The notes under the pieces are model-generated. The model had not been told where the DNA came from, did no database searches, and saw only the letters and a list, made by a program, of their open reading frames with translations. 61,653 bases of DNA, taken from Eubacteriaceae bacterium (GTDB lineage: Bacteria > Bacillota > Clostridia > Lachnospirales > Lachnospiraceae). The translations under genes and the position numbers were made by a program. The DNA lies in the NCBI GenBank assembly GCA_902362455.1, contig CABIWJ010000012.1:1-61653 (forward strand), given 5' to 3'. Below, in pieces: positions 32,876-54,356 of the stretch; positions within the stretch are counted from its first letter, which is position 1; every line of letters starts with the position of its first letter.

Positions 32876-32952
32876 TTTACCCTTTCTACATAATATCAAT
32901 TACATTTACATCATAAATCATATCACATCCTTATATTTTCAAACAAAATGGA

Positions 32953-33588: not shown

Positions 33589-33645
33589 ATTATACATCCT
33601 TTCTAAGTGTTTTATTTTTTGAATAGCCGGAACTAATTTCATCAC

Positions 33646-34362: not shown

Positions 34363-34389
34363 AATGTCTTCCTTTAACTCTTAAATCAC

Positions 34390-34473
34390 TTAATTTATCA
34401 CCTGAATAAGTTCTATTGTAGTATCAGAATTATTATCATCATTATCAGTAATGATGATAACAGATACGCACTT
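34390..34473 (-). pseudogene. Possible tail of a lost toxin domain
   Basis: A short frame encodes KCVSVIIITDNDDNNSDTTI and ELIQVIN before a stop at 34390, 28 bases ahead of the DUF6896-like gene. A 12-bp perfect inverted repeat (34433-34444 with 34449-34460, loop TCAG) lies inside it. The position fits the C-terminal end of a lost toxin, but the fragment is short. Confidence 0.3.
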
Positions 34474-34517
34474 GTTGTTACCTGTCTATGGTTATCATTT
34501 TGCACCACATTCTATTT

Positions 34518-34790
34518 TCAGTTTTTCCACTCAATATCCCATCCGTCCAAAGTTTTCCATTCAAAAATTTCATTGAAATCCGAATAACAATTTTCACAAA
34601 TACAACATGCACAATCTATAGTTACAAACCACCTTTGATATGGACTATTCATAACTTTATCCAAACAAAATATACACTGTTTTAAATGAGGTGCATTATT
34701 AACTATTTCTTCTCCATCTGTTGGATTTAAATCAACACTTTTTAGATATTCGACATTCTTTTGTAAACGCCAATCTTTGTTATTACTCAT
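34518..34790 (-). CDS. Hypothetical 90-aa cysteine-rich protein, candidate immunity protein
   Basis: The protein has two cysteine pairs, CIFCLDKV and CACCICENC, that could bind zinc, and an acidic Trp-rich C-terminus (FEWKTLDGWDIEWKN). The start has a GGAGG site inside the end of an Rhs remnant whose toxin tip is gone. This gives the arrangement [Rhs linker]-[immunity]. Family unknown. Confidence 0.55.
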   Translation of the reverse strand: MSNNKDWRLQKNVEYLKSVDLNPTDGEEIVNNAPHLKQCIFCLDKVMNSPYQRWFVTIDCACCICENCYSDFNEIFEWKTLDGWDIEWKN

Positions 34791-34799
34791 ATGTTTGTC

Positions 34800-35024
34800 A
34801 CCTCCTCAAAATACTTTTTAAGTCGTCAACCACCACTTCAAGAGGTGATGTCACAGTTCCTTTTCCACTTTTTATTGCTGTAAATGCATTTATTCCTAAT
34901 GCTACAACGTTACTTGCTGTATCAGTCCCAAGCCATTTAATATGGCATGTCCTAAATTCTTCCAGTTAAGTCTGTCAAGTTGTGACAATCCAAACGGGTC
35001 TGTCTACTTTATAGGATTATGTCA
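34800..35024 (-). pseudogene. Rhs C-terminal remnant with internal deletion
   Basis: Positions 34923-35024 match 39709-39800 of the intact Rhs gene (DPFGLSPLDRLNWKNLGHAILN region) with few changes. The segment then jumps to a different linker reading NVVALGINAFTAIKSGKGTV and ends in frame as VDDLKSILRR before a stop. The toxin domain is absent. An internal deletion has removed roughly the part that encodes the AAKIVSTACKVVSNAATF region. Confidence 0.8.
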
Positions 35025-35364
35025 TTTTGTATGCAATGCAAAATCTTACTGCTTCATTCAAAGCATCCATTACATCACTTTTTTGCATATTCTCATCATC
35101 ATAAAAACAATATACCGGTTGTTTCTCTTCTTCATTTGATATTTCAATATCCATAGCTTCAAAATAGACAAATTGATATGGCACAAATTGCGAATTGGTT
35201 ACCGAAAGTTGTGCTATACAATTTTCAAAATCAAAGTCAATAATCAACGCATCATTATTATTTGTGGACACAATAATATTATTTTCATTCTTCATATCAG
35301 ATGAAATTTTTTCATACCATTCCATAACGGATTCTTTAATAATCTCATAATTATAATCACTCAT
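35017..35364 (-). CDS. Hypothetical 115-aa protein, candidate immunity protein
   Basis: The start at 35364 (MSDYNYEIIKESVMEWYEKI) has AGGAGG upstream. The acidic soluble protein has a NDALIIDFDFENCIAQLSVT strand pair and a helical C-terminus. Its last codons run into an Rhs remnant. I do not recognise the family. Small size and location suggest immunity. Confidence 0.55.
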   Translation of the reverse strand: MSDYNYEIIKESVMEWYEKISSDMKNENNIIVSTNNNDALIIDFDFENCIAQLSVTNSQFVPYQFVYFEAMDIEISNEEEKQPVYCFYDDENMQKSDVMDALNEAVRFCIAYKMT

Positions 35365-35459
35365 ATTACTTCCTCCTATCATTAGTACAGTACATCGCAT
35401 TAATCTATGTACTCAGGTATTATGTTTTCACCTATAACACAATCGAACATTTTTATAGT

Positions 35460-35696
35460 TTATATCTCATCCTCATATGGTTGACGAACCATATTTATAA
35501 AACGTTCTTCTGTGGCTCCAAACAACTTATAATTCTTCTTAGCAGTATTCAATGACACCTTATTTGCTCCAATAATTCTATCGGGCATATTTTGAGCCAC
35601 TTCATCATATTCCCAAAAGCAAACATCACAAATATCTGTAATTAATTCATCTGTATCATCAATAGTTAAGTATCCACAACATGGACATTTTTTCAT
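35460..35696 (-). CDS. Cysteine-rich CPCC family protein, candidate immunity protein
   Basis: This 78-residue protein matches the CPCC family: KKCPCCGYLTIDD at the start, ICDVCFWEYDEV about 20 residues later, then GANKVSLNTAKKNYKLFGA and VRQPYEDE. The four cysteines should bind one zinc. CPCC proteins are recurrent immunity-type genes in Firmicutes Rhs and WapA loci. Its ATG overlaps the TGA of an upstream toxin-tail fragment (ATGA), classic toxin-immunity coupling. Confidence 0.8.
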   Translation of the reverse strand: MKKCPCCGYLTIDDTDELITDICDVCFWEYDEVAQNMPDRIIGANKVSLNTAKKNYKLFGATEERFINMVRQPYEDEI

Positions 35697-35843
35697 AAAA
35701 CTCTCTCCTTAAAATTTCTTGATGCATATTTTTTAATTTGCTCTAGCCAATATACCATTCTATTTTCGTGCTTAAAAAGTGTACAGTCAAGCATCTTATA
35801 CATCTGTTCCAACATCTTGTCTACTTTAACAAGCACATTACCT
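35693..35843 (-). pseudogene. Toxin C-terminal tail coupled to the CPCC gene
   Basis: A frame without a start encodes GNVLVKVDKMLEQMYKMLD, CTLFKHENRMVYWLEQIKKY and ends ASRNFKERVL. Its TGA overlaps the CPCC start codon. This helical, basic tail is what one expects at the end of a toxin tip. The rest of that toxin is gone. Confidence 0.5.
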
Positions 35844-35855
35844 GCTTAGCTGATA

Positions 35856-36040
35856 TTACTTTAATGCATCTTTTGCATACAAAATATCTTGCTCTAATTT
35901 TAAATCCAGATACTTGACAACCAATTTTTCTATACATTCAATAAATCTAGAAATTTGTACTTGTTCTGAAATATCTTCAAATATTTCACTTATCCAATCT
36001 ATATTTTCTTTGCAACAACAATTCAAATACACTATAGTGC
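35856..36040 (-). pseudogene. 3' half of an immunity-like gene fused to an Rhs remnant
   Basis: A frame reading STIVYLNCCCKENIDWISEI, FEDISEQVQISRFIECIEKL and ending EQDILYAKDALK runs out of the Rhs remnant in another frame. It lacks a start codon. The join suggests recombination between an Rhs core and the middle of a downstream gene. Confidence 0.45.
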
Positions 36041-36300
36041 TTTCTTCAATTCTTTCGAAGATGATAGCAGGTTATTTCCACTTGTTGCGGCCGTAAATGC
36101 GTTTATTCCAAATGACACCAGATTCTTAGCTGTATCTTCTGAGAATAACTTGCCATTTATCATATTTTTGACTATCGCTTTGGCATTGTTAACGCCTCCG
36201 ATTGCCGCCTGTGTAAATGTTGCCGCATTACTTACCACCTTGCACGCTGTACTTACTATTTTAGCTGCTGTGGTTATTTTCGCTGCTGTCATTATTCCCG
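36032..36300 (-). pseudogene. Near-identical partial duplicate of the Rhs pre-toxin region
   Basis: An 86-residue frame matches the region around residue 4600-4690 of the intact Rhs protein (TAAKITTAAKIVSTACKVVS through SFGINAFTAATSG) with only one or two differences. It ends a few residues after SSKELKK. At DNA level it mirrors 39336-39590 almost base for base. Such identity, among otherwise decayed remnants, points to a recent duplication or gene conversion. Confidence 0.9.
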
Positions 36301-36395
36301 AAGCAATATATGTAATCCTTATTTCATTATTTTTACCGATATCTTTGTATTTTTAATACTATAGTCAATGTTACATTTTTTACAATAACCTCAAA

Positions 36396-36856
36396 TTACT
36401 TTTTCGAAATCACTATATCTTTCGGTTTGATCCAGGATAAACTCTCTTGTAAAATCTTGCAGAACTCTTCCTCATTTTCTATTTCATATCGTTCTTTAAT
36501 TTTTTCATCTTCTCGTAAAAGAAACAAATAAAAACTTGACAATCTAACAATTTTTTCCAAAAAAATTAATAATGAATTTCTAATAAAATCGCCTTGAAAA
36601 TTATTAGCTAAAAATTCCAATTCGGAAAGTTCATTTTCTTTATAAATAAATGCACTATACTTTTGTTCATCTAAATTTTTTCCTAATATATCGCTATAAT
36701 ATTTTAAATTTGTTAACTTTTCAAATACAAGATTTTTGCTAATAAATCTCGCAGGTTCTTGTGAGAATAGCATACCATCCCATTCTACTAATTGTTCTTC
36801 TAAATCAATTTTTTTATTTCATCCTTTGGTATAACAATATCCAATAAAAAATCCAT
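36396..36856 (-). pseudogene. Immunity-like gene split by one-base frameshift in a poly-A tract
   Basis: The ATG at 36856 (GGAGG upstream) opens MDFLLDIVIPKDEIKK and stops early. After a run of seven A on the coding strand (plus positions 36819-36825), the next frame continues DLEEQLVEWDGMLFSQEPAR through to LSWIKPKDIVISKK at 36396. One extra A would restore a 154-residue protein. It lies next to the toxin tip at 36864, so it was probably that toxin's immunity gene. It could be decayed or switched by slippage. Confidence 0.7.
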
Positions 36857-36863
36857 ATTATAA

Positions 36864-37535
36864 TCATCCTCCTTTATGATAATATGGTGTAGGTTCTCTT
36901 CTAACCCAACCACCTCTGTCTGGATTATATTCAAATATATGCTGATGTGGATTAGTATGATGTTTAGGCGTTCCATGATCAGTCCAATGTACTTCACTCC
37001 AAGGAACTGTAAATTATATTCCAACAGTGGCTTATTATTAGCTTTATTGCCCCACTTATTTCCAACATCTGTTCCTATCATTTTCTTGATATCCTTACCA
37101 GATGTCACAGCTCCTTTTCCACTTACTATCGTTGTAAATAAATTTAGTCCTAATGCTGCAACATTACTTTCTGTATCAATCGATAGTAGTTTTCCGCTTT
37201 TGGCATTTCTGAATATGGCTTTTGCATTTTCTAAACCTTATATTGCTGCCTGGGTAAATGTCGCCCTCACAGGCATACCATACTGCGTTTATACCATCGA
37301 ATATAAAGCCATATCCATTTATACATCCCTGTATGTTTAATGCTGAATGTCCAACATTTCTCCAGTTAATTTTATCAAGTGGTGACAATCCGAATGGGTC
37401 TGTCAGCTTTATAGGATTACCCTGGACATAACTGTATCTATTAAGGCTCTAGCTTACATTGATACTTCCATGTGCTACGTCCTGATTGACTAATCGCTTG
37501 ATATTAACATTATAATATCTTGAACCATCTAATCA
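36864..37535 (-). pseudogene. Orphan Rhs core remnant with a different toxin tip
   Basis: Positions 37010-37535 match the intact Rhs C-terminal core (INQD-like end, IKLTDPFGLSPLDKINWRN, and WGNKANNKPLLEYNLQF) but carry stops and a deletion. One base is missing after LEYNLQF. The shifted frame then encodes PWSEVHWTDHGTPKHHTNPH followed by QHIFEYNPDRGGWVRR and a stop at 36864. The HWTDHG..K.H..PHQH pattern is a known style of toxin-tip ending. It is a displaced toxin module, now broken. Confidence 0.8.
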
Positions 37536-38886: not shown

Positions 38887-41800
38887 TTAATCACCCACCT
38901 TTCCGTAAGAAACTATTCTATCCATTAAATCTAAAGGTTCTTGATTTAGAATGACAAATACATTGTCTATTCCATATACTACATCCAAATCTGTAACATC
39001 TATCTCTACATAATAAGCATATTTTGCTCCTTGAAATGGATTATGGATAAAACTTCTCGATAATTGGGCTGGTGATTTGGTACCAGGTACTATATCAGAT
39101 AAATACTGCCCCTCCCCATAAAAACAATCATTAGGATTGTTAGCTTTAAGTGAAGGATTTAATTTCTTCGACTCAACAATTCCATTCATACCTTTCTCAT
39201 TGGTATAATGGTATAAAGTATTAGAAGGACTACCACTCTTATCCGCAAAGAACTGCAAATTACATTCCAACAGTGGTTCTTTCTTTGCTTTCTTGCCCCA
39301 TTTACTTCCAACACTGTCTCCCACCACTTTCTTCAATTCTTTTGAAGATGATAGCAGGTTCTTTCCACTTGTTGCTGCCGTAAATGCGTTTATTCCAAAT
39401 GACACCAGATTCTTAGCTGTATCTTCTGAGAATAACTTGCCATTTATCATATTTTTGACTATCGCTTTGGCATTGTTAACGCCTCCGATTGCCGCCTGTG
39501 TAAATGTTGCCGCGTTACTTACCACCTTGCACGCTGTACTTACTATTTTAGCTGCTGTGGTTATTTTCGCCGCCGTCATTATTCCCGAAGCAATATTTCC
39601 TATCATCGGTAATGCCGACATCATCGACAACACTGCCATTCCATACTCACCGTCGTGTGCATACCATATGGCATTGGCTATATCAAATGCCTCTCCGATT
39701 ACAGGTATCAGTCCCAAGCCATTTAATATGGCATGTCCTAAATTCTTCCAGTTGAGTCTGTCAAGTGGTGACAATCCAAATGGGTCTGTCAGCTTTATAG
39801 GATTACCCTGGACATAACTGTATCTGTTAAGACTCTGGCTTACATTGATACTTCCATGTACTACGTCCTGATTGATGAATCGCTTGATATTCACATTATA
39901 ATATCTTGCTCTCATATAGTAAAGACCATTATCATCTGTCATTACGCCTAGCTGACCATTATATAAGAATGGGGTTATCTTAGTATCTCCACTTAGAACT
40001 TCACCGTAGGCACCATATTCATAGCTTTGGATTACATTTCCATTATTGTCGGTTAACTTTGTGGTACTTCCAATATTATTGTAATGATAGTATGTTGTAC
40101 CATCCGTATCTTTATCTGATGATTTGTCAGATGATAAATCTTGTACTTTGTTATCGGATGTTGTGCTGTCTGCTTCATTATCATTATAACTGTATATCAG
40201 ACCATTGCCATATACATAGACTGTATGTATCTTCTTTCCGTCATTAGTTTTCTCATATGATTCTAATACCTGCGACATTTCGCCTGCCACATCTGTCACA
40301 TATGTAATCTTTTTATCAGTTGTTGTTACTGATGTTCTTGTATTTTCGGCATCGTAGTCGTATGTTACATTTCCTGCACTGATAAGTCTGTTTCGGCTGT
40401 CATATGTAAGGTTACACATTTCTCCATTCACAGGACCATATAACATATTTCCATCTTTATCATATTTTATCTTTTTATTATTATAGCTTATAAGACGGTT
40501 TGCACTGTCATATTCCATTTCTAATGAAGTAGTTACTGTTTCACCATCAGATGTTACGATGCTGTTACTTTCTGCTGCAAGTTTCAATGCTGTCTTGTTA
40601 GCAGTATCCGGTACAGGTAATGTGTAATTATTATCCTCTGTTAAACCATTGGTTGTTTCAGATTCATTTTTTATATCGACTGTTGATTCGTCTAATGTAG
40701 CATCTGTTGTTTTCGCTGATGTATCAGCTGTTACATCTACAACACCTACGATATTTCCTCTGACATCGTATTTATAATGATATTCGTTGATGACCTCACC
40801 TGTGGCGGTTTTTATGTCCTTTTTAGAGATCAGTAAACCAAGCTCATTGTATTCACAATGCTCTTTTGTTCCGTTTGGTCTTTCTGTATCTGTCAGATTT
40901 CCTGTTTTATCATATTTATAGTAGGTTACTCTGCCTTTGCTGTCTGTTACTGTCGCTATCTGACCGCCTGCATAGTATGTATAGCGGATTGTTTCTCCAC
41001 CTGGATATGCTATTGTAAGTATGTTGCCTAATTCATCATAGCCGTATCTTATGGTCTTTCCGTTGGCATCTGTGCATGATGTCACCCTGTTTCGGCTGTC
41101 ATATGTTCTAGTGATGACTTTGATGCTTTTGGCATTTGCGGCTGACATTCCCTTTATTTTGCCTGTGTTTTCCTGCTTTCTCTCTTCTGTTTCTCTTAAC
41201 ACATTGCCGTTTTTATCATATTCATATGTTATCCTGCCTGTTTCATCTTCCTTTGATGTTATTCTTCCGATGGCATCATATGTATATTTTGTCTTTTGAT
41301 TTCTTCCGTTTGTACTTTCCGTAAGAAGTCCTGTTGCATTGTATTCATTTGTCTTTGTTACGCCTATGGCATTTGTCTCTGATACCGGTCTGCACATCTT
41401 GTCATAAGTGTAGGTTGTTGTTCCTCCATTTGCATCGGTTACCGTTGTAACATTTCCTATGTTATCATAAGATGTTTTGGTGATTCCGTCTAATGGATCT
41501 GTTACTTCTGTAAGTCTGCCTGTTTTATCATAATTATATGAGGTTGTTACGCTGTCTTCTGTATTAGTGTATTTATTCTCTTTTATGAGGTTATTGGTAT
41601 TATTATACTCATACGTATTTTCATGACCTGCAGCATCTATTGTCTTTATAAGATTATTGTTTATGTCATATTCATAACGGGTTGTATGTCCCTCTTCATC
41701 TGTTTCACTTATAAGATTGCCAAGTCTGTCGTAACTGTATGTCTTCGCATTTCCTGCTTCATTTATAGTTTTAGTAAGACGTGATAAAGCATCATATTCA

Positions 41801-44800
41801 TATGAAATGGTTATCTTACCATTTGCCTTAGTCTCTGTACTTACTGATATTAATCTTGACAATGCATCATATGTATTAGTCATTATGGTTCCATCAGGTA
41901 ATGTCTTTTCGATACAGTTACCGTTTGCATCGTATTTGTATGAGGTTGTGTTACCATTTTTATCTGTTGTGCTTAGTAAACGTCCGTTTATGCCATACTC
42001 GCATTTCTCTGAATTGCCTAATGCATCTCTGGTCTCAATAATTCTTCCCATTTCATCATATCGATATGTTTCTGAATTATTCTGTGAGTCTGTTTTTCTG
42101 ATTAATTTCCATGTGCTGTCATATGTGTAAAGTGTACGACTATTATCAGGATATATTTCTGCATATAATTTTCCATTTGGATAATATGCATATTTTATCT
42201 TGTCACCAGCTGCATTGGTTTCGCTTATCTTCTGGTTAAGTGCATCATATTCATAAGTTATTACATTGCCTGACTCATCTGTTTCACTAAGCATATTTCC
42301 TTCGGCATCATATGTATAACTTAATTCAGTACCATCAGGTTTAATTATCTTAGTGTTTCTTCCATTTGAATCATATTCATATCTTATCTTTCTGCCGTCA
42401 GGAGTAATGTCTGCTGTCTTATTTCCGATAATGTCATATTCATATGTTGTAGTCTGTCCTGCTTCATTAGTCTCTGTAAGAACATTTCCATATTTATCAT
42501 ATGTATATGACTTTGTTCCTCCGATAGCATTTGTCTTAGTTAATGTTCTTAACAAGGCATCGTGTGTATAAACGGTAGTGCCTCCAAGGGCATCTGTCTC
42601 ACTGACCACACAGCCTGTTCCGTCATAAGTATATGTTTTCGCATTGCCATTATAGTCTGTAGTCTTTACTAACATTCCTTCGGCATATTCATACGTTGTG
42701 CTTCCGATACCTTCTATGGTCTTTCTTAATACCTGTGCATAATCATTATATTCATATGTAGTTACGCATCCTGCATAATCTGTAGTTTTAATAAGCAGAT
42801 TTCTGTCATTATATTCGTATGTGGCAGTATTTCCATTAGCATCTGTTGTTGATGTTACATTGCCATTATCATCATAGGTGAATTTAAGTTTATTACCACT
42901 CTGGTCTCTGACTGATATCTTTCTGTTATGGCTGTCATACTCATTGATGACTGTTCCATCTAATGCATCTTTTTCAAATATCTGATTGCCATTTTCATCA
43001 TAGCCCATCTCCGTAACATTTCCATTTGTATTAACATTCTTAATGGTTCTTCCATTGGAATCTAATACTACTTCACCGACATTGCCTAAACTGTCATAGG
43101 CTTTCACAATAGTATTTTCACCATCATTTTCATATGTCATCTTAAGACTCTGCTTACTCTCATCAGCATCTGACTGTTCTATTACTCTGCCTTTTTCATC
43201 ATAAATATTTTTAACATATGTAACGTTTTCACAATCTGTCTCGCTTATAATTCTGTTTTCTGCATCATAAGTAAATGTAGTGGTTTCTCCCATTACATTT
43301 GTATAGGTCATAAGCTTTCCGTCCTGATATGTGAATGTCGATTTTCTTCCATTATCATCTGCAACAGATGTAATTAATCCCTCAGAATTATAGTTAATTA
43401 TAATTCTCTTTCCACTTGCCTCCTCTGTAATTATTTTCTGTGTATTTCCATATGTAATATATCTGTTTCTTCCGTTAGAATCAGTTATCTGTGTGTTTCT
43501 TCCTGATTCATCGTATAGATATATTTCCTTTGTCGGTGTAATTACCTTATATGTACCATCAGCTTCTTTAAACAGCTTATACTCCTTTGTTAATTCTGAT
43601 ATCGGTATATATTCACCAACATTTGAATTCTCTTCAAGGAATATTTCATCATCAACCACCTTGCCATAATAGGTTCCATCTGCCATTTCCTTATTAATAA
43701 ATGCACCTGTTATGCCTGATGTAAGATTTAGTGATATAACATTATTTTTATCCTCTATTGATGTCTCTAAATTATTATAGAATCCATATCCGTTTTCGCC
43801 TTTTAATGTTGAAAGTCCGGAATTATATTCAAGGTTAAATGCTAACTCTGAAGCAGCGTTTACACTCATAGGTGTCATACTGTCCGTAAATGCACCTGTG
43901 CTTAAATCTACAGGATCACCGAAATAATTCTTAACCTCTACCTGTTCTACTATCGTTTTGGAAATATGACTGTCTATAGGATGTACTTCTATCGTTACAC
44001 CCTCTATATCACCAAATGCCTCTACTAATGATTCTATCAATGTATAATATTCTTTATCCTTATCACCAGAACCTCCAAACTTAGTAAAATATGTTCCATT
44101 TACTGCCTGTCCCGAATATAATACCGGTATTCTAAAAGTATCTCCTCCTTTTAGTACTGTTGCACTTGTGTAACCCGATGGTGCAGAGATTATATTTGAG
44201 CTTCCTCTATGAACTGTTTCGTTTTTATCTTTATCTATGACTAACGTATCACTTCTGGAAGTTTCATAATGATACGGTGGCATTGATGTATGGAAGTTAT
44301 ACAGGTCTTTTCCTGATGTGTTCTTAATCTCGAACTGTATATAATAATTCTCGTCTATATATGCATCTTTTTCCGGATATATGGATACAACTATTCCCTC
44401 TCCTTTGGTTACTTCGAATTCTTTCTCTGTTTCAAAATGTGCATATATATTTCTGTTAAATGGAGACAATTTACCTGTGAAATCTGCCTCCAGCTTATAT
44501 GAGCCTGATTTATCCCCTTTTACAACCCATGTCGCTGTCTTCTGCTGTTGTCCCATAATATTACCCATATCATATGTCAATGACTGTTTGTCCTTAGTCA
44601 CTGCTAAAGATACTCCATCCGGTAATTTTAATTCTGCTTTTGATTCTTTTATAACATATTTTGTCTCTGCTGCATTCAGTATATTCAAATCCACACTATA
44701 CATATCTTTAAGCCAGCTTACTTTATTAGACGTAGAGACTATTGCAATTATAGGCTGGTCTTTCTCTAACAGTTTAGCTTCCGGTACGGGTTCTTTTGCC

Positions 44801-47800
44801 GGCGTATGTGTTCCTGATGAAGTTGACTCTGGCTCCTTCCATTCTCCATGGAAATCTAATGCATTACCGGGTGTTTCTGATATTCCGCCTCCTATATACT
44901 GTATCTGGCGTGGAATAGGCGATTTAGCCAATTTAACCGTTATGGTAAACGCAAATGAATTAATATTATCAGGATCTGATACATCTACTCCTGCATCTAT
45001 AATCTCCTGTAATGTCATTCTCTTAACATCAAGATTACCAACTACAATATTACCCTCTTCAAGCTGTAGATTAATTATCTTCTTCTCATATCTGTCTATG
45101 ACTACTGTAGTGTCTGCTGGTAAATATTTATCATAATAAGCAGCTATCTCATATACACCCTCTGCACCTGCTATTTTTATCTCGCCTTTAGCATCTGCAC
45201 GCATTGTATCTATGCTGCCATCAGGTGATTTTAAATATATATCTACATATGGCAATGGTATACCATTTTTATCTGTTACATTTACGGTTGCAGTTCCACT
45301 ATTTTCATTATTAAGGACTTTTACCGTTGTCTCAGCACTTGAAGTATTTCCTGCCGCATCTTTAACGGTCAGTTTTACCTTATATACACCCTCTTTATTA
45401 TATGTGTATACAGGCATAACTCCCTTTAATACGTCACCATTTCCCATACTCCATGTATAATCTGTTATTCTGACATTATCGGTCGATGCACCGCCATCTA
45501 ATGATATTTCGAAGCCTGTCAGCGTACAGATATTCTCTGTGATTATGGCTGCAGGTGCTTCTGTATCCTCATCTGTAGCATATGATGTAACAACCTCTGA
45601 TTCTGAATAATTGCCATATATATCGTAAGCTAATACCTTATAACAATATATTCTGCCCGGTACTGCTGTTTTGTCTATGTATTTTCTGGCACTAGTAGTA
45701 GCTATACAGCTATATCCGCCTCCTGATACATCAGCCTTATATATTTTATATTCTTTAAAATCTTCTGACTGTTCGCCTGTAATTGCTACTTCTATCTTAT
45801 ATCCTCCCGGAGTACACTCAATTACAGGTGTATCAGGTGGTGTCGTATCTATAGTATAGCTGACTTCTGTATATTCACTGTAATTTCCGAACTTATCTGT
45901 TGCAGATACTCTGAAATCATATTTTCCCTCTGTAAGTCCCACTTCTTTTGGCGAAAACTGTACATATACACTTCTTTCATTTTCTTCTAAATATGTCTTA
46001 GTATATATCTTATTAAATAAGCCTGCATCATCAGCCTCTTTCTTACATTCAACCACTACCTCCTGAATGGCAGAATTATCAATTGCTACTATGTTAATAT
46101 TTCCATTTAATCCGATTACCGAATCTGTCTTTGGAGAAATGCCTTTAATCACAGGTGCCTCTGTATCCTCATCTACTGTAGCAGATACTATTTCACCATA
46201 TTCGCCTGTGTTTCCTGCAATATCTGTTGCGGCTACCCTATATCTGTATGTATGTCCCGGAATTACATTATTATCATAATAGTCTGTGTTTGTACATTTA
46301 TCTGAAATGTTATAAAAGGCTCCGTCCTCACCATCAGCTCTGCTGACAACGTAACAGACAGTATCTCCCTCCTGACCGTCCCACGATATATTAACATATC
46401 CTTTTTCACCATATGCTTTCGTGTTCTCTGGTCTGTCAGGTGCTGTTCTGTCAATTATATATTTGACAATTACTTCATTACCACCTTCTAATAAGGCATT
46501 TTTATTTCCTGACAAATCATATGCCTGGAATCTCACATATACTTCGCCCTCCGGAATATCTGCAGTATTCCATACATACTCAATAGTTTCATTACATAAT
46601 TTTTCCTTTGTCTCAATGCTTGCTAACTTAACATAATTTATACCATCCACAGAGTATGCAAATACTCCATTTTTCACTCCATCATTATCTGATACAGACA
46701 TTGACAGCTCAATTGTATCTCTATATCTTGACTGTATTGGAAGTATACTGTTAATTGATGGTGAAATCTCATCACTTATGGTTGTAACAGTTATTTCATC
46801 AGATGGTATTCCCCGGTTACCAAGCCTGTCATATCCGACTACTCTGAATGTATAAGTTTCTTCAGGTATTAAATTGTTCACATTATAGCCTAATACATCT
46901 TTTACAGTTCCTATTCTCACGAATTCATCTGTATCAGGATTAACTAATTTCTCCACAGCAAAATATGCTAAGTCATCTGCCTTAACATCTTTCCATCTTA
47001 ACTGTACACTTGTTGCCTTTATGGTATGCTTATCTAATTCTATTTTCTCTATACCTGTATTATCTGTTGTATATCTTCTGGTATATAACTCTGTACTTTC
47101 ATTCCCTGCAATATCCATTGCAACTGCAGATAATATATATACTCCATCTTCTAATTTCGTGGTATCAAAATTAAATGCAGCCACACCGTCTACACATTCG
47201 CTTGTACCTATCTTCGTTGTTTTATTATCATCTTCCCTGTTATAATAGAGTGTAATCTGCTTAACTTTCACATTATCTGCTGCAGTAACACTTATTTCTT
47301 TCACTCCTGCTATCTCTTTATCATCAGGTGTTATTCCCTTAATAACAGGAGGTATGTTATCCCTTGTTGTCTGTATTGTTACTGATTCAGTAATACTGCT
47401 TTCATTATTATATTTGTCATATGCTGATATTGCATATTCATATATTTTGCCCTCTTCTACATTTTTATCACTATATCCGGTCTCGAATTTGCCTGGGATT
47501 TTCACATATTGTTTAAATACATTATTATCTTCTGTCTTCCTGTACACTACATAACCTTCGCAGTCAGCACTTACCGATGGTGTAAAATGCAGTATATTAA
47601 CACCGTCTTCACTCTTAACTGTCAGATTCTGTGGTTTCTCCGGTGCTGACTTATCAATGATATATGTAACTGATTTAGTAGAACTGTTACCATCTTCATC
47701 ATATACAGTAATCTTAATTTCATACTCGCCGCCATCATTTATGTTGCTTATATCCCAATTGTATGATGCATATAATCTTCCATAAGATTCTCTTGAGAAA

Positions 47801-50800
47801 TGCAATTTATCCGCAATAGTCTGCCATTCACTGCCATTATATCTATATTCTAATGCTGCTGTATAATTTGAATTATTAATATTATTATTTGCATATATGG
47901 TTATATTAACTTTATCATTGCCTATAGCACTATTATCGCCAGGTGATATACTCTCAATTGCCGGATTACTCACATATGTTTTTACTACACTGGTTTTATC
48001 AGAACGATTACCTGCCCTGTCAACTGCTACTACATAATATTCATATACTGTGTCCTGTTTTAAATCACTGTCTCTGTAATTAATATAATTATCATTTTTA
48101 CCAGCCTTCAATTCATCTATTTTCTTACCATTACGATATATCTCGTATCTATCAACTCCAAGATTATCTGTAGATGCATACCAGGACATTGATACTGAAC
48201 TTCCTGTTCTCTTATATATACTGAACCTATAAGGTATGGTAGGCGGCTCATTATCACCCTCTGTCGTAACTGTAAGAAGTGTTCTGTTAGTCGATTTATT
48301 ATCACAGTAATCATATGCACATACCTCATATGTATAATCTGTTCCCGGCATCAGTTCTATATCTTTATATGTTGTGTTATTAATGTCATCAATTAATTCT
48401 CCATCTCTATACAGATAATATCCACATACTTCCATATTATCAGCAGCTTCATCAAATTTTAACGAAATTGTATCCATCGTAATCTCTGTAGCTGCCAAAT
48501 TCTCTACGTCTGATGGGTTTTCTTTGTCATTATAATCTCTTACTATGACACTACATAATCTGTTAATGTCAATGTCTGATTCATAACCTTTCTCTAATGC
48601 TTTAGTAATTACTAAAACATTAAATAACTGGCTGTTTCTGTAATTATTGACAGTTATCTTCTGTCTTAATTTTCCCTCATTATTGTTTCCGCTTAGTATA
48701 GTCTTATGCGTTCCTGTGGCACAAAAGCTCTCAGGCTTGTCACATATGAAATCACCTTTTACTTCCAATGTACCTGCTGACAGTGTTCCTGTACCTGTCT
48801 TTGTTCCTATGTGCAGGTCACCCTTTACTAATACATAACCCTGTTCGTTGTCCATATTGAGTGAACAACTATAAACATTATTTTTATCCTCATATCCACT
48901 ATCTATTATCGTATTTCCATTACAGATTAACTGACCTGACTCTGCATTGATAATATATTTGTTAATTATATTGTCAGTCTCTAAAGAACCATTATTCATA
49001 TTTAAATGCCCCTGGTTCACGAAGCTTTTAGATATAATTTTACCATTATCAACATTTAGTGTGCCTGAATTATCAAATTCATTTTCAGATATAATTTCTC
49101 CATCATTTACATATGTTGTACCTATATTTGTAATGCTGTCAGCCTTTACTGTATATTTGTCCAATTGCACATATCCCATTTCTAACTTGCCTTTAACACA
49201 AAGGTTATGTTCTAACTTTTTAATTACAGAATTATCTTGCTGAATGTCTGCTTCTATTATTTCATTCTTTATGCTGCCTAACCCCTGTACTTTTATTAAT
49301 GGCTGTCCTTTAAGTTTAGCATCCTTTAAATCTATTTCTTTACGAACACAAAATTCATCCTCCAAAGTAATTTCTGTACTGTTTACAATCATTGTATCAA
49401 CTTCAGCTATAGTATTTTTATCATTATTAACTTTTTCACCATTAAATGTCAATATGGCATATATATATGCTTCAATATATTTTGCATATTTATCGTTTTC
49501 TCTGTGTAATATACTTCCATCAAGATTAACATCTATATATGAATGCCAGCATGATTCTAATATAAGATTTCCCCTTATATCAATTTTCGAATTATCCACT
49601 TCATTAGTTTTTGATATATTATTATAAATCGCATTTACTACATAATTACCTTTTACTTCTATTTTTGTATTTTCAACTCTAATATTGTATCCTTGATACA
49701 AGTTTTCTTTTATTTCTACACTTGCATCATTACAGATAATTTCTCTATCTTGATATAAGTTTCCATATACCAATAATGAGCAAGCATTTATTTCTAAATA
49801 TCCACTTACATATACATCTCCATCTATAGCTGTATCATTTGTGATAGTCTCCCCATCATAGATATATCCCACTCTATGCTTACCATTTTGTAAATCTGTA
49901 ATTTTAATTTTACTGCTTATTTTTACTCCATATACAGAATCATTTAATGATTTTACCATACCAAGATTAGTTGCCTCTTTAGTCCTTATTTCCTGAGTAT
50001 CTTCTCCTGACATAATTATATTACATAAATCTGTTGTTATAAATTTACTGTTTATATCCATATTTCCTGTTATATTTAATGTTCCCTTATCAAGACATGA
50101 TAGATTGTCTGATTCATACTTTAAATTTTTACAATTGATAATTGATTTTTCATCTGTAATCTCTATTTGTGAACCATTCTTAATAATCAGTTCTCCTGCT
50201 GTAACTACACCTCCATTATTTATTAATTTTGATTCCTTACCATTATATCTACTAAGGCATAATTTTTCACCTGCACTTAACGAGCCATCTATGGTAAGGC
50301 TCACGCCTGATATCTCTATATTTCTTGCACTTATTTTACTCTTAATCTTAACATTTCCAGATATTATAATATCACCATTTATATCAATATCTCTTTCCAG
50401 TTCAATATTATCTTTTACTATTACTCTGCCCGAAATACTATTATTTTCCATACTGGTGGTATCATATACGCATAAATTATTTATATTTGTATCATTACCA
50501 TATACTTTTCCTGATGCGCCAAAATTGCCCCAGCCATATATATACACACTTTCACATTCACATTCAAGATTAGGTATAATAAATTCAGAGTCTGTATTAA
50601 TTTCCTGTTTTTTAACTCCATTAAGACATAATGTGAGATTACCATCTAATTTAACTTTTTTTCTTTTTTCAATCGTTATATCTCCCTTAACGCTAATCTT
50701 TCCATTAAGTTCTGCTATCTCTGTGAAATAATTTTCTCCAATGTATAAATTTCCTGATATACTTATGTTATCAATATCTTTTTCCATAACAAGACTACCA

Positions 50801-53433
50801 CTGTTAAATCTACACTGGTCTTCTATTATCACATTTCCGTTATTCAGGCAAAATGTTCCATTATTCTGTATTAAATCTCCCTTGATTGTTAAGTACCCAT
50901 TATCTATTTTTGAATCTCCTGCATACTGGCTGAAATCACCATTAATTATTAGTTTTCCATTATTAATATTTACTGTTCCATTGTTATTTACAAAATCTCC
51001 ATTTACAATTATTGTGTGTCCATTAAGGTCAAGTTCTCCACCTATTAACTCCACATTGTCTAACTCTATATCTTCATTTAGTATCCAGCCATATATTATT
51101 TCTGAATTATCCGCATAGATTCTGTTCTTTGTTTTTTCTATATTATTCAGACTGCCACTTACTATATGAACTTTTCCGGTATTGTTATTATTCTTAATTC
51201 TTCCAATACTTCCTGATATATTAAGTATCTGATCTGATTTTCCATTTAATATGACCAGTAGCTCATCATCTGTTCCCAGACTAATCTCTGAATTTATATC
51301 TCCACCTATCTCAAGTGTACCTTTATACATACTACTAGACTGTGTATCTAAAACATTAAACTTACCATTAACTTTAAAATAATCATTTTCATTATTCATA
51401 CAGATAGAAACCGGTTCACTATAATAACTATAATAATCCTCTATCATTTGATAATCCTCTATCATTTGATAATCCCCTTTTACTTCTAATCTTCCGCCAT
51501 TAAAGATTATAGAGCCATCACAATGATAAAATGAACCATTTATTGTCAGCTTATGCCCATTTAGATCAAGATTACTGTCTAGGGCAAAGTCCCCATCTAT
51601 TACCATATCTCTGTCCAATGTTCCTAAATCATAATATTTAATCCCATTATATGATGGTGTTATTTCTTCATAACGTATGTTTTTTATTTTCGCCTCTTCA
51701 TCTATACTGATTCCATCAATTGATGTATTATTTACTATCAGATTTGAAATGTTTCCGGAAATATTCTGTGTTTTCCATCCACTTAGAATTACTTTTGCAT
51801 TATCATATGTATTTATACTATTATATTTTCCCTTAAGTTCAATAGTTCCATCACAAATGTTTTCAGCAAATCCCAGGTCACATCTGCCATATATGCAGAC
51901 ATAGTCCTCCGGATGACTCATCTTAAGCACAATATTATCTGAAGATGCCCATTGTGTATTAAAATATCCATAAATTATTAATTTTCCCTTGTTCATTATA
52001 ATATCCCCGCCGCCGTAATTATACTCATTGACCTCCACATTACCGCCTATTTCAATTATCCCTTCTATTGAAATTGAATTTGCCCTTATATTATTTGCAA
52101 TATATACATTCTTCGTTATATAAATATCTCCATCCGTACTTATTTCGCCATTATTGAATATATTGTTATCTGTATATATATTTATATATCCCTTAACATT
52201 TATCCTGTCATTATCATTGTCCATAATGATATTGCCTTTGCCTACATAGTCACCAATATCTTCTGAATATGATGCATAATTAACATCAACACTACCATCA
52301 ACATTTAATGTACCGCCATTAATTCTAAGGCTTCCATCTGTTACATTGACATTTCCTTTAACATAAAGGGTATGTCCATTAAGATTAACTTCTCCACCAC
52401 TTATATATAAATCAGCCTCTATTACCTCATCTTTGTCAAGTGTCCAATTATGAACATAAACATCTTCTTTCTTATCTATATTACTTCTATCTTCTCTTCT
52501 GATGTTTCCATTAACCTCACATTTTATTGTCTGATTATAATTCTTCAAAAATATCCCCGCATCACTACTATTATAACTAACAAGATTATCTATTATTATA
52601 TCAGAGGTTATTGTCTGAAGCCCATCTCCTCTCAGATTCATTGTTAATGCATCACTAAATTGCACATCTTTTGCAGCAGTAAAATCTCCATACAAATCAA
52701 TTCGTCCGTTTTTAAACTTATATCTTCTATCATCAGTTTCTGAATTGCAGGTAAGATTTCCTCTGACAATCATTTCATCTGACGAATAAATCATTTTACA
52801 ATCAGAGTTATTTTCAAAGGTAACATTTCCACCACATTTTAATTTTCCCTTGTTAAATAATAAATATCCTTCTTCTGCATTGACATTTCCATAAACAGTC
52901 AAAGTATATCCATTAAGGTCAAGATTTCCTTTCATAATATCAAGATTATAGACAGCTATATCCCTATTCATAGTATAATCTTTATCAATACTTAAATCTC
53001 CGGGCATATCAATACTAACATCCTGACTTGTACCATATACACCATTCTCATCTAAATAAACAATTACTTTATATGTATAATGTCCATCAGATTCAGTATT
53101 ATAGTCAGAATATTCTATATCATTTGTACTGGCAATTATTTTGTTATCTCTGAATATCAGATATGTATAATTCTTTTTATCATTCTGATTATTTCCGTTA
53201 ATGTCATTCCATTTTAAACAAACTTCGCCTTTGTCACCTATCTTACTCTCAAGTGTTATAATGTTTTCAAATGTTTTTACATTTTCCGGTTGTTCTGCTT
53301 CATTAACCACTTCATCCGCATATGTCTTTGAATTATTTTTATTAAAAATTCCTGTATCTACCCATTCACTTACAGGCAGCATAACTATTACCAATACTAT
53401 TGCTACAATTCTTTTTAATGTCTCTCTTTTCAT
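38887..53433 (-). CDS. Giant secreted Rhs/YD-repeat toxin with ADP-ribosyltransferase tip
   Basis: This 4,848-residue protein has a signal peptide (IVAIVLVIVMLPVS) and an Fn3-like domain. A shaft of about 1,500 residues of short repeats (LDLNGHTLTVYGNVN, GTLNVDGSVDV and variants) probably folds as a beta-solenoid. About ten Fn3/Ig-like modules follow (about 1640-2630), then a PKD domain and a carboxypeptidase-regulatory-like module to about 2775. A DUF6531-like start (GDPVDLSTGAFT, about 3170) opens dozens of YD repeats (about 3310-4500), ending in the core YYMRARYYNVNIKRFINQD. A pre-toxin segment precedes the tip. From about 4735 the tip (TLYHYTNEKGMNGI, CFYGEGQYLSDI) matches the HYD1-type ADP-ribosyltransferase family. 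It resembles WapA-like contact toxins of Firmicutes. No sortase motif was seen. Confidence 0.93.
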   Translation of the reverse strand: MKRETLKRIVAIVLVIVMLPVSEWVDTGIFNKNNSKTYADEVVNEAEQPENVKTFENIITLESKIGDKGEVCLKWNDINGNNQNDKKNYTYLIFRDNKIIASTNDIEYSDYNTESDGHYTYKVIVYLDENGVYGTSQDVSIDMPGDLSIDKDYTMNRDIAVYNLDIMKGNLDLNGYTLTVYGNVNAEEGYLLFNKGKLKCGGNVTFENNSDCKMIYSSDEMIVRGNLTCNSETDDRRYKFKNGRIDLYGDFTAAKDVQFSDALTMNLRGDGLQTITSDIIIDNLVSYNSSDAGIFLKNYNQTIKCEVNGNIRREDRSNIDKKEDVYVHNWTLDKDEVIEADLYISGGEVNLNGHTLYVKGNVNVTDGSLRINGGTLNVDGSVDVNYASYSEDIGDYVGKGNIIMDNDNDRINVKGYINIYTDNNIFNNGEISTDGDIYITKNVYIANNIRANSISIEGIIEIGGNVEVNEYNYGGGDIIMNKGKLIIYGYFNTQWASSDNIVLKMSHPEDYVCIYGRCDLGFAENICDGTIELKGKYNSINTYDNAKVILSGWKTQNISGNISNLIVNNTSIDGISIDEEAKIKNIRYEEITPSYNGIKYYDLGTLDRDMVIDGDFALDSNLDLNGHKLTINGSFYHCDGSIIFNGGRLEVKGDYQMIEDYQMIEDYYSYYSEPVSICMNNENDYFKVNGKFNVLDTQSSSMYKGTLEIGGDINSEISLGTDDELLVILNGKSDQILNISGSIGRIKNNNNTGKVHIVSGSLNNIEKTKNRIYADNSEIIYGWILNEDIELDNVELIGGELDLNGHTIIVNGDFVNNNGTVNINNGKLIINGDFSQYAGDSKIDNGYLTIKGDLIQNNGTFCLNNGNVIIEDQCRFNSGSLVMEKDIDNISISGNLYIGENYFTEIAELNGKISVKGDITIEKRKKVKLDGNLTLCLNGVKKQEINTDSEFIIPNLECECESVYIYGWGNFGASGKVYGNDTNINNLCVYDTTSMENNSISGRVIVKDNIELERDIDINGDIIISGNVKIKSKISARNIEISGVSLTIDGSLSAGEKLCLSRYNGKESKLINNGGVVTAGELIIKNGSQIEITDEKSIINCKNLKYESDNLSCLDKGTLNITGNMDINSKFITTDLCNIIMSGEDTQEIRTKEATNLGMVKSLNDSVYGVKISSKIKITDLQNGKHRVGYIYDGETITNDTAIDGDVYVSGYLEINACSLLVYGNLYQDREIICNDASVEIKENLYQGYNIRVENTKIEVKGNYVVNAIYNNISKTNEVDNSKIDIRGNLILESCWHSYIDVNLDGSILHRENDKYAKYIEAYIYAILTFNGEKVNNDKNTIAEVDTMIVNSTEITLEDEFCVRKEIDLKDAKLKGQPLIKVQGLGSIKNEIIEADIQQDNSVIKKLEHNLCVKGKLEMGYVQLDKYTVKADSITNIGTTYVNDGEIISENEFDNSGTLNVDNGKIISKSFVNQGHLNMNNGSLETDNIINKYIINAESGQLICNGNTIIDSGYEDKNNVYSCSLNMDNEQGYVLVKGDLHIGTKTGTGTLSAGTLEVKGDFICDKPESFCATGTHKTILSGNNNEGKLRQKITVNNYRNSQLFNVLVITKALEKGYESDIDINRLCSVIVRDYNDKENPSDVENLAATEITMDTISLKFDEAADNMEVCGYYLYRDGELIDDINNTTYKDIELMPGTDYTYEVCAYDYCDNKSTNRTLLTVTTEGDNEPPTIPYRFSIYKRTGSSVSMSWYASTDNLGVDRYEIYRNGKKIDELKAGKNDNYINYRDSDLKQDTVYEYYVVAVDRAGNRSDKTSVVKTYVSNPAIESISPGDNSAIGNDKVNITIYANNNINNSNYTAALEYRYNGSEWQTIADKLHFSRESYGRLYASYNWDISNINDGGEYEIKITVYDEDGNSSTKSVTYIIDKSAPEKPQNLTVKSEDGVNILHFTPSVSADCEGYVVYRKTEDNNVFKQYVKIPGKFETGYSDKNVEEGKIYEYAISAYDKYNNESSITESVTIQTTRDNIPPVIKGITPDDKEIAGVKEISVTAADNVKVKQITLYYNREDDNKTTKIGTSECVDGVAAFNFDTTKLEDGVYILSAVAMDIAGNESTELYTRRYTTDNTGIEKIELDKHTIKATSVQLRWKDVKADDLAYFAVEKLVNPDTDEFVRIGTVKDVLGYNVNNLIPEETYTFRVVGYDRLGNRGIPSDEITVTTISDEISPSINSILPIQSRYRDTIELSMSVSDNDGVKNGVFAYSVDGINYVKLASIETKEKLCNETIEYVWNTADIPEGEVYVRFQAYDLSGNKNALLEGGNEVIVKYIIDRTAPDRPENTKAYGEKGYVNISWDGQEGDTVCYVVSRADGEDGAFYNISDKCTNTDYYDNNVIPGHTYRYRVAATDIAGNTGEYGEIVSATVDEDTEAPVIKGISPKTDSVIGLNGNINIVAIDNSAIQEVVVECKKEADDAGLFNKIYTKTYLEENERSVYVQFSPKEVGLTEGKYDFRVSATDKFGNYSEYTEVSYTIDTTPPDTPVIECTPGGYKIEVAITGEQSEDFKEYKIYKADVSGGGYSCIATTSARKYIDKTAVPGRIYCYKVLAYDIYGNYSESEVVTSYATDEDTEAPAAIITENICTLTGFEISLDGGASTDNVRITDYTWSMGNGDVLKGVMPVYTYNKEGVYKVKLTVKDAAGNTSSAETTVKVLNNENSGTATVNVTDKNGIPLPYVDIYLKSPDGSIDTMRADAKGEIKIAGAEGVYEIAAYYDKYLPADTTVVIDRYEKKIINLQLEEGNIVVGNLDVKRMTLQEIIDAGVDVSDPDNINSFAFTITVKLAKSPIPRQIQYIGGGISETPGNALDFHGEWKEPESTSSGTHTPAKEPVPEAKLLEKDQPIIAIVSTSNKVSWLKDMYSVDLNILNAAETKYVIKESKAELKLPDGVSLAVTKDKQSLTYDMGNIMGQQQKTATWVVKGDKSGSYKLEADFTGKLSPFNRNIYAHFETEKEFEVTKGEGIVVSIYPEKDAYIDENYYIQFEIKNTSGKDLYNFHTSMPPYHYETSRSDTLVIDKDKNETVHRGSSNIISAPSGYTSATVLKGGDTFRIPVLYSGQAVNGTYFTKFGGSGDKDKEYYTLIESLVEAFGDIEGVTIEVHPIDSHISKTIVEQVEVKNYFGDPVDLSTGAFTDSMTPMSVNAASELAFNLEYNSGLSTLKGENGYGFYNNLETSIEDKNNVISLNLTSGITGAFINKEMADGTYYGKVVDDEIFLEENSNVGEYIPISELTKEYKLFKEADGTYKVITPTKEIYLYDESGRNTQITDSNGRNRYITYGNTQKIITEEASGKRIIINYNSEGLITSVADDNGRKSTFTYQDGKLMTYTNVMGETTTFTYDAENRIISETDCENVTYVKNIYDEKGRVIEQSDADESKQSLKMTYENDGENTIVKAYDSLGNVGEVVLDSNGRTIKNVNTNGNVTEMGYDENGNQIFEKDALDGTVINEYDSHNRKISVRDQSGNKLKFTYDDNGNVTSTTDANGNTATYEYNDRNLLIKTTDYAGCVTTYEYNDYAQVLRKTIEGIGSTTYEYAEGMLVKTTDYNGNAKTYTYDGTGCVVSETDALGGTTVYTHDALLRTLTKTNAIGGTKSYTYDKYGNVLTETNEAGQTTTYEYDIIGNKTADITPDGRKIRYEYDSNGRNTKIIKPDGTELSYTYDAEGNMLSETDESGNVITYEYDALNQKISETNAAGDKIKYAYYPNGKLYAEIYPDNSRTLYTYDSTWKLIRKTDSQNNSETYRYDEMGRIIETRDALGNSEKCEYGINGRLLSTTDKNGNTTSYKYDANGNCIEKTLPDGTIMTNTYDALSRLISVSTETKANGKITISYEYDALSRLTKTINEAGNAKTYSYDRLGNLISETDEEGHTTRYEYDINNNLIKTIDAAGHENTYEYNNTNNLIKENKYTNTEDSVTTSYNYDKTGRLTEVTDPLDGITKTSYDNIGNVTTVTDANGGTTTYTYDKMCRPVSETNAIGVTKTNEYNATGLLTESTNGRNQKTKYTYDAIGRITSKEDETGRITYEYDKNGNVLRETEERKQENTGKIKGMSAANAKSIKVITRTYDSRNRVTSCTDANGKTIRYGYDELGNILTIAYPGGETIRYTYYAGGQIATVTDSKGRVTYYKYDKTGNLTDTERPNGTKEHCEYNELGLLISKKDIKTATGEVINEYHYKYDVRGNIVGVVDVTADTSAKTTDATLDESTVDIKNESETTNGLTEDNNYTLPVPDTANKTALKLAAESNSIVTSDGETVTTSLEMEYDSANRLISYNNKKIKYDKDGNMLYGPVNGEMCNLTYDSRNRLISAGNVTYDYDAENTRTSVTTTDKKITYVTDVAGEMSQVLESYEKTNDGKKIHTVYVYGNGLIYSYNDNEADSTTSDNKVQDLSSDKSSDKDTDGTTYYHYNNIGSTTKLTDNNGNVIQSYEYGAYGEVLSGDTKITPFLYNGQLGVMTDDNGLYYMRARYYNVNIKRFINQDVVHGSINVSQSLNRYSYVQGNPIKLTDPFGLSPLDRLNWKNLGHAILNGLGLIPVIGEAFDIANAIWYAHDGEYGMAVLSMMSALPMIGNIASGIMTAAKITTAAKIVSTACKVVSNAATFTQAAIGGVNNAKAIVKNMINGKLFSEDTAKNLVSFGINAFTAATSGKNLLSSSKELKKVVGDSVGSKWGKKAKKEPLLECNLQFFADKSGSPSNTLYHYTNEKGMNGIVESKKLNPSLKANNPNDCFYGEGQYLSDIVPGTKSPAQLSRSFIHNPFQGAKYAYYVEIDVTDLDVVYGIDNVFVILNQEPLDLMDRIVSYGKVGD

Positions 53434-53489: not shown

Positions 53490-54356
53490 TCATGATACTC
53501 TCATAAGCTTTATAAACATTATTATTTTGTATATATACTCATTCATCTTCATCGCTCTGCTATTCACGTTATCTGAAATTTTTTCAAATAACTTCCTTGC
53601 CGTCATATATGGCGTACTTGTTGCGTTATTATTTACACTGAAGCGATTTGTATTATTTGTTTTACTATCTCTATATGTTTTATTAAGTGTGGTATCATTA
53701 CCTGTATTCTTTACAACCTTACTGTCTGTTTCACCATTAACAGAATTTTTGCTCTTATTATTTTCATTATTCTCATCGTACTGTTTTATAATACTCAAAA
53801 CACTATTAAATGGCTGATTTAACACATTGTCATTTCTTGCCTGTGTCCGCTTTGTCTTCTCTATTACCTGTTCTATTCTATTTTCAGCATTGTTCTGCTG
53901 TTTCTTATCCTCATACTTTTTAGTTGTTTCCGACTCTTTCTTTGTTGTTTCCTGGTTCTTCTTTGTTGTCTCTGACTCTTTCTTTGTTGTCTCCTGGTTC
54001 TTCTTTGTTGTCTCTGACTCTTTCTTTGTTGTCTCCGGATTCTTCTTTGTTGTCTCCGACTCTTTCTTTGTTGTCTCTGACTCTTTCTTTGTTGTCTCTG
54101 ACTCTTTCTTTGTTGTCTCTGACTCTTTCTTTGTTGTCTCCTGCTCTTTTTTTGTTGTCTCTTTGTTATACACCTTTACACTAATTAAATTACCATTCTT
54201 ATCATACTTATATTCTGTATAACTTCCATCATCATGTACAACTTTTACTAATCTGTTTAATTTGTCATACTCATAAGTTTCTGCTGATACACATATCCTT
54301 GCAGACACAACAATAATAATTATGACAAAAATCATAATTAATTTCTTATTTTTCAT
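53490..54356 (-). CDS. Secreted mini-YD protein with ETTKKES tandem repeats
   Basis: This 288-residue protein starts with a signal peptide (LIMIFVIIIIVVSARICVSA). Two YD-type motifs follow (TYEYDKLNRLVKVVHDDGSY and TEYKYDKNGNLISVKVY), closely like the Rhs shell. Twelve 7-residue repeats (ETTKKES and variants) span residues 66-149, then an Asn-rich region (NNENNKSKNS) and a hydrophobic-basic C-terminus (YKIIMFIKLMRVS). It is the first gene of the Rhs transcript, 56 bases before the giant gene. It may be a remnant of an Rhs N-terminus or a wall-spanning helper. No function is known. Confidence 0.85.
   Translation of the reverse strand: MKNKKLIMIFVIIIIVVSARICVSAETYEYDKLNRLVKVVHDDGSYTEYKYDKNGNLISVKVYNKETTKKEQETTKKESETTKKESETTKKESETTKKESETTKKNPETTKKESETTKKNQETTKKESETTKKNQETTKKESETTKKYEDKKQQNNAENRIEQVIEKTKRTQARNDNVLNQPFNSVLSIIKQYDENNENNKSKNSVNGETDSKVVKNTGNDTTLNKTYRDSKTNNTNRFSVNNNATSTPYMTARKLFEKISDNVNSRAMKMNEYIYKIIMFIKLMRVS
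53910..54161 (-). repeat. Twelve-copy 21-bp tandem repeat in the mini-YD gene
   Basis: The repeat unit is 21 bases long and encodes ETTKKES or ETTKKNQ-type heptads. Central copies (about 54040-54140) are identical. The reading frame is kept, so slippage would change repeat number by whole heptads. The plus-strand mirror frames are shadows. Confidence 0.9.

Follow-up and report, generated by a model that had tools for sequence, protein, structure and literature searches.

How Rhs proteins of more than 300 kDa pass through the Gram-positive cell wall is described as unresolved in the introduction of PMC12704120, and the related question of how such a protein is held at the cell surface is raised by a giant gene from a Lachnospiraceae genome. 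The stretch analysed here, termed the window, comprises 61,653 nucleotides from a gut-type Eubacteriaceae bacterium (assembly GCA_902362455.1, contig CABIWJ010000012.1) and encodes on its minus strand a giant Rhs/YD polymorphic toxin, in which a long repetitive N-terminal region, the shaft, precedes a shell of YD repeats and an ADP-ribosyltransferase tip. A first-pass annotation had read the shaft as a β-solenoid stalk and left the anchoring of the protein open. A candidate answer is now provided by a small YD gene directly upstream, unseen in that annotation, which we term the companion. Across loci the companion accompanies almost all sampled giant genes with a strong match to a particular domain in front of the shell, which we term the lid.

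A conserved single-YD gene upstream of the giant gene

The companion gene lies on the same strand as the giant gene, 56 bp upstream of it. Its product has a signal peptide (read from the sequence), a single YD pair at residues ~27-62 and a polar linker of the TTKKESE type; it matches RHS_repeat with E = 2.2e-7, and NCBIfam and Pfam recognise it merely as a YD repeat, with chance matches in the linker. In their sequences the companions form a distinct YD subfamily, to whose separation shared ancestry contributes. Scored against the remaining 17 companions as the model, the hairpin of the window reaches 62.1 bits, as against 43.3 for the best giant-protein match. When each companion is left out in turn (1,043-1,072 giant-protein matches per run, weak ones and near-duplicates included), 17 of the 18 cores outscore every YD match in giant proteins, the exception being that of locus L029, which is beaten by four of them. 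The core is conserved (mean identity 0.57 among 16) and companions are spread over many genera.

Gene maps show the same order, small single-YD gene followed by giant gene, recurring across loci: where the two genes are adjacent, they share a strand and are separated by -74 to +151 bp; L049 has a single gene between them and L034 has two. When 299 genomes of the family were searched with the companion profile, 12 of the small-open reading frame (ORF) matches listed had E <= 5.7e-14, and each of the 12 is followed on its own strand by a YD-shell or shaft gene; seven of these are themselves rows of the profile, and those of L034, L049, L074, L075 and L076 are not. Among the weaker matches, L042 (2.6e-12) was classed as a companion and L077 and L078 as shell debris, with G124:C100, G162:C11 and a few more left out.

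On a contig named Oscillospiraceae (L084:4493-6868) a 791-aa protein with a C-terminal companion-like YD pair (59.4 bits) is encoded directly before a shaft ORF, and may be a companion outside the Lachnospiraceae. In L034 (12791-17283), L047 (12374-13591) and L049 (5269-6774) genes for proteins of 405-501 aa, alike by eye with TYRAQMAT near the C-terminus, separate companion from giant gene or immediately precede the latter; in L034 a gene for a 1152-aa protein follows.

Linkage of the companion to the pre-shell lid

The lid has no Pfam best stretch, no NCBIfam family and no PDB relative better than E 0.1. It scores 281-413 bits in the 16 companion-bearing giants with the lid region covered and 239 bits in L047; no other gene whose start is readable exceeds 140. 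We counted companions over 73 loci (the window, L016-L079 after removal of the duplicates L030, L031, L051, L072 and L073, and L162-L174), defining a companion as an ORF of fewer than 800 aa with one or two core matches, the best of at least 45 bits, on the same strand and no more than 7 kb upstream. The shared strand is a condition of this count; the gene maps show the same orientation independently. A companion precedes 16 of the 17 strong-lid giants with a readable start, in a sample biased by L016, L017, L018, L020 and L075, which first entered it through companion searches. Three loci without a 5' end (L026, L036, L164) were left out of this count; in L017 and L020 the giant gene is split, the counted ORF being its second half, and it is the first half that follows the companion. 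By comparison, companions are found before none of the 16 full-size (at least 2,800 aa) Rhs genes without a strong lid, ten from the family and six from other Clostridia, in the 2.3-11.3 kb of upstream DNA covered. Among ORFs of at least 700 aa with at least five YD matches and no strong lid, a companion is seen in 1/21, namely L074, where a cut-off shell lies right behind it; five of the 21 are fragments or halves (L074, L078, L174, the 745-aa ORF of L024 and, in L034, a half of 1338 aa).

A lid search of 397 genomes yielded 16 strong places; the 5' end is visible in 13, and 12 of these have a companion. Eight of those 13 had supplied rows to the lid profile, and just two genes, in G696 and G650, had been used in neither profile. 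These two, L162 and L163, found by the lid alone, provide the cleanest test of the link: their companions score 63.6 and 69.7 bits. Weak-lid places with a visible 5' end (L041, L165, L166, L167, L168, L169, L171, L172, L173 and L174) have a companion at 0/10 in the DNA covered, which for L171 is only 1.0 kb upstream; outside this count stand L170, which has no 5' end, and two fragments in G144:C25. The association is with the lid and not with the shaft: a companion also precedes L075, a strong-lid gene without a shaft, and none is seen upstream of the five genes for shaft proteins without a YD shell (L041, L043, L044, L045, L048), with just 223 and 670 bp covered for L044 and L048.

The shaft is a predicted β-helix

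The short repeats reported in the first-pass annotation are real: in self-comparison shaft pieces match other parts of the shaft with E down to 7e-18, and a super-repeat profile has nine matches between residues 140 and 1597, some of them partial. The hydrophobic residues show a weak 6/18/24-residue period (0.098 at lag 6), to be read against a shuffle control in which the best lag is at most 0.080 in 95% of shuffles and 0.105 in the highest. Structure prediction in overlapping pieces, which that annotation had called for, gives an all-β solenoid in both: residues 130-1165 with a mean predicted local distance difference test score (pLDDT) of 72.7 and a predicted template modelling score (pTM) of 0.42, and residues 1000-1700 with 70.9 and 0.47, low-confidence stretches being present in each. 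Neither piece is predicted as disordered or as tandem globular domains, and the folds aligning best are parallel β-helices such as those of pertactin, HMW1, EtpA and tapirin. We assign the shaft, with moderate confidence, to a predicted parallel β-helix solenoid.

The proposed solenoid stalk is supported. Other genes encode such a shaft too, and it recurs as a module of giant Clostridia proteins with or without a YD shell, in 17/299 genomes of the family and 14/291 of a class sample, the nearest genome (G001) being counted in both. Of 22 shaft homologues 12 carry the RHS-repeat Pfam family, and the remaining ten, some partial, include proteins with lipase, leucine-rich repeat (LRR) or lectin families. 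As it occurs on proteins without a YD shell, the shaft may be a general stalk or adhesin module. Two further proteins, P0005 and P0006, likewise carry it without a shell, some of the shell-less proteins having lipase or LRR families. In P0002, P0016, P0019 and others, high- and low-scoring copies of the super-repeat often take turns, with as many as 14 matches in one protein, a pattern that suggests an alternating unit of two types. In the assemblies of L017, L020 and L034 the shaft giant gene lies in two reading frames, either a real split or an assembly error.

Domain architecture of the giant protein

The plus-strand reading of the giant gene is riddled with stops. Behind the shaft, Pfam and NCBIfam scans recover the Fn3 (best stretch 1734-1813), Ig-like (Big_13) and PKD_4 (2625-2706) modules, the YD shell and the ADP-ribosyltransferase tip named in the first-pass annotation, and reading of the sequence bears out its signal peptide. 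The shell region has DUF6531 (3172-3232), 18 RHS_repeat stretches (E = 1.2e-119) as is characteristic of Rhs/YD toxins, and the Rhs core TIGR03696 (4473-4554, E = 4.5e-18), with a DPxG-type motif, DPFGL, at ~4550 as the predicted cleavage site. The tip belongs to Tox-ART-HYD1, one of the known exchangeable toxin families, and orphan core and pre-tip copies lie downstream. The lack of a sortase signal or wall-binding repeat also stands: in Pfam at E 0.1 the giant protein matches no sortase-signal, LysM, SLH, SH3 or choline-binding family, nor does it have an NHL or two-partner secretion family. Profile scans detect a β-propeller family neither here nor in the companion.

Companion tails

Outside the YD core the companions vary, and the YD pair is kept whatever other domains are present. 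CBM26 and dockerin are combined with a C-terminal YD pair in L020 and L042; other tails carry three CBM25 (L075), six Fn3 (L029) or LRR_5 (L049, L162). Companions in which no further Pfam family reaches its cut-off are termed linker-type here; in 10/11 of them the 18-mer of highest hydrophobicity falls within the last 45 residues, three being membrane-helix-like; the exception, L034, has a Lys-rich end. Membrane-helix-like ends are seen in L017, L037 and L046 and amphipathic ones in L016, L018, L033 and L040, with modest 18-mer hydrophobicity in L074 (0.92) and L163 (0.04). L032 and L076 have no recognised tail, and the smallest companion, that of L038 with 86 aa, has little beyond signal and YD pair. 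By sequence the tails look like anchors or adhesins. The 16 Pfam families (E <= 1e-5) in the 11 companion-bearing giants scanned, five of them shortened or cut by a contig end, include no wall-binding or sortase family.

A proposed docking clip and its alternatives

We tentatively favour, with slightly less than an even chance of its being right, a two-gene, Sec-exported and surface-displayed polymorphic toxin, in which the hairpin of the companion docks at the lid or shell and its tail serves as anchor. Since both proteins seem to have signal sequences of their own and the genes run in one direction with a small gap between them, both would be exported and are probably co-expressed. The giant chain would present in order a β-helix shaft, very roughly 30-40 nm in length, Fn3/Ig/PKD spacers, the lid, the YD cocoon and the ADP-ribosyltransferase tip, against which the DUF6881 product probably guards. 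The only constant part of the companion, one YD hairpin, would dock on the lid or the open edge of the shell, and the variable tail would hold or place the cocoon at the cell surface as an exchangeable anchor, from which target cells might be killed: in many companions through a membrane or amphipathic helix across the polar linker, in others through starch-binding and dockerin, Fn3 or LRR modules. Taken together, the invariant YD hairpin, a link to the lid and not the shaft, and tails resembling anchors or adhesins favour such a docking clip. In a wider form, which we regard as possible rather than probable, a YD hairpin supplied in trans could be a general docking clip that completes or caps the lid end of the cocoon, exchangeable tails setting the position of the toxin; if true, Gram-positive polymorphic toxins would have an anchoring logic resembling that of dockerins.

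Several observations weigh against the docking clip. The tail of the companion in the window is weakly hydrophobic (0.71) and those of L034 and L038 have no obvious anchor. The 12 companion-less giants are mostly without recognised anchors too, SH3_3 being found in 2/12 among the 25/31 families listed. L047 is the lone strong-lid gene without a companion, in 6.1 kb upstream. The correlation between companion-core and lid distances is weak (Mantel r 0.26, p 0.078, 16 pairs), and lid and companion may simply be markers of one clade.

The main rival, which we consider unlikely, is that the companion is an export or assembly factor and not an anchor. A membrane-near YD hairpin would then, with the same low likelihood, template or cap the shell as the 4,800-residue chain leaves Sec, and subsequently stay or depart. 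Such a factor is supported by the invariant YD hairpin, the unit from which shells are built, by the L038 companion, barely more than a signal and a YD pair, and by the precedent of SecF-like and SrtB genes beside WapA in Streptococcus suis (PMC12704120); yet it leaves the starch-binding, dockerin, Fn3 and LRR tails unexplained, and no companion is found at the 16 other full-size Rhs genes. It is decidedly improbable that the shaft serves by itself as adhesin or anchor, in the manner of tapirins and two-partner adhesins, with the companion a separate secreted adhesin sharing the operon: the shaft-less L075 has a companion, the shell-less shaft genes, as far as covered, have none, and the YD pair persists through every change of the other domains.

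We give very little weight to the view that this is a Gram-positive Rhs/WapA toxin of the usual type in which the N-terminus is longer and the mechanism is not new. Shell, core, tip and neighbouring candidate immunity gene are all standard, and the N-terminus varies in other bacterial YD-shell proteins as far as these are described in PMC13018210, but the giant protein lacks a recognised wall-binding repeat, joins a β-helix shaft to a YD shell in one chain and has a conserved companion gene. Least credible, and already disfavoured, is the view of the companion as a relic, left by decay of an N-terminal or shell fragment and carried along with the giant gene; although fragments abound in Rhs loci, the window included, the companion has a signal peptide of its own and a conserved core that separates from the YD matches of giant proteins and is found in many genera.

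The region downstream

The coordinates are collected in Table 1. The DUF6881 gene is likely the immunity gene of the giant toxin; ART-HYD1 beside DUF6881 is seen at 0/3 other loci, a sample of three only. Farther downstream, stretches of the pre-tip linker recur as orphan copies among small genes, four of which belong to the DUF6896, DUF2625, DUF2247 and Imm44 families. Orphan core and pre-tip copies among small genes are typical of tip-exchange loci in polymorphic toxins, and the 28.9-37.5 kb region looks like a usual locus of this kind. A window-like series of orphan pre-tip or toxin-like ends and small genes also lies downstream of the shaft-less, lid-bearing Rhs gene of L075 (L075:153-6270).

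Table 1. Features of the giant toxin locus, with positions in the window
Feature	Position	Strand	Basis or remark
Giant Rhs/YD polymorphic toxin gene, 4848 aa	38887..53433	-	ORF ends coincide exactly with these positions
Signal peptide region, residues 1-40	53314..53433	-	read from sequence
β-helix shaft (predicted), residues 140-1640, ~190-aa super-repeats	48514..53016	-	self-matches, super-repeat profile, structure prediction
Fn3, Ig-like and PKD modules, residues 1734-2706	45316..48234	-	Pfam/NCBIfam profile scans
Pre-shell lid, ~275 aa, residues 2890-3164	43942..44766	-	profile searches; marks the Rhs clade with companion
DUF6531, YD shell and Rhs core with DPxGL motif, residues 3172-4554	39772..43920	-	profile scans
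Pre-tip linker, residues 4555-4739	39217..39771	-	sequence reading; NLQFFA motif close to its end
Tox-ART-HYD1 tip, residues 4740-4840	38914..39216	-	Pfam, E 1.7e-28
Companion gene, 288 aa: signal peptide, one YD pair, polar linker	53490..54356	-	profile scan, sequence reading
Single YD hairpin of companion, residues 27-62	54171..54278	-	leave-one-out companion model
Candidate immunity gene, DUF6881, 98 aa	38598..38894	-	E 3.6e-34; overlaps giant-gene stop by 8 bp
Five orphan core/pre-tip pieces	28868..37523	-	DNA identity 70-98% to giant gene
Orphan pieces, approximate positions	36035-36309, 36992-37265, 37260-37523, 34919-35019, 28868-29038	-	

Comparison with known systems

The giant protein shares with WapA and Gram-positive Rhs proteins (Bacillus subtilis, S. 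suis) a Sec-type signal, DUF6531, the YD shell, the Rhs core with its DPxG motif, a variable C-terminal toxin and an adjoining candidate immunity gene. It differs from WapA in having no LysM or other wall-binding family in Pfam and in its ~1,500-aa predicted β-helix shaft. As in the S. suis system, in the part described in PMC12704120, dedicated genes lie upstream; there these are SecF-like and SrtB, whereas here the upstream gene encodes a single-YD secreted protein that is neither SecF nor a sortase. The conserved companion, with its one YD pair and interchangeable tail, offers a concrete part for the wall-passage step in Lachnospiraceae.

The bacterial teneurin-like proteins (BiTLP), in the portions of PMC13018210 that describe them, likewise have a YD shell with a C-terminal toxin, variable N-terminal display modules and a PxxxxDPxG cleavage motif. 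They differ in their NHL region, of which the giant protein has no family at E 0.1, and in the predicted S-layer or wall-binding domains reported there for Gram-positive members, which are not found in the giant protein; set against them, its lid is without a solved relative by sequence. In teneurin-like proteins an FN-plug seals the shell. TEN_YD-shell is matched by 2/11 companion-bearing giants scanned, the giant of the window not being among them.

In the Tc toxins a second YD-containing polypeptide completes the YD cocoon, as seen in TcB-TcC. The companion, unlike that pair, has a single YD pair and an anchor-like tail, and neither of the two proteins has a β-propeller family. Should the clip act as proposed, single YD hairpins could serve as handles on YD-shell assembly.

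CdiA, as it is generally understood, joins a long β-helix filament to a polymorphic toxin at the C-terminus and has an immunity gene; the shaft is likewise a predicted parallel β-helix filament. The giant protein differs from CdiA by having a YD cocoon and no match to the two-partner secretion family; to our knowledge, a CdiB-type outer-membrane partner is not to be expected in Clostridia, the class of the named relatives with the system. Among the literature matches listed, in which subscription titles are little covered, there is no account of the companion or of a β-helix shaft on a YD-shell toxin. The toxin itself is of the known Rhs kind, and the shaft-plus-cocoon build and the clip gene are its new elements. 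A 2012 survey, in the sections bearing on delivery, confines filamentous-hemagglutinin repeats to type V toxins and assigns RHS repeats to every other delivery type (PMC3482391); the shaft would unite in one chain the β-helix filament and the YD cocoon, two designs kept apart there.
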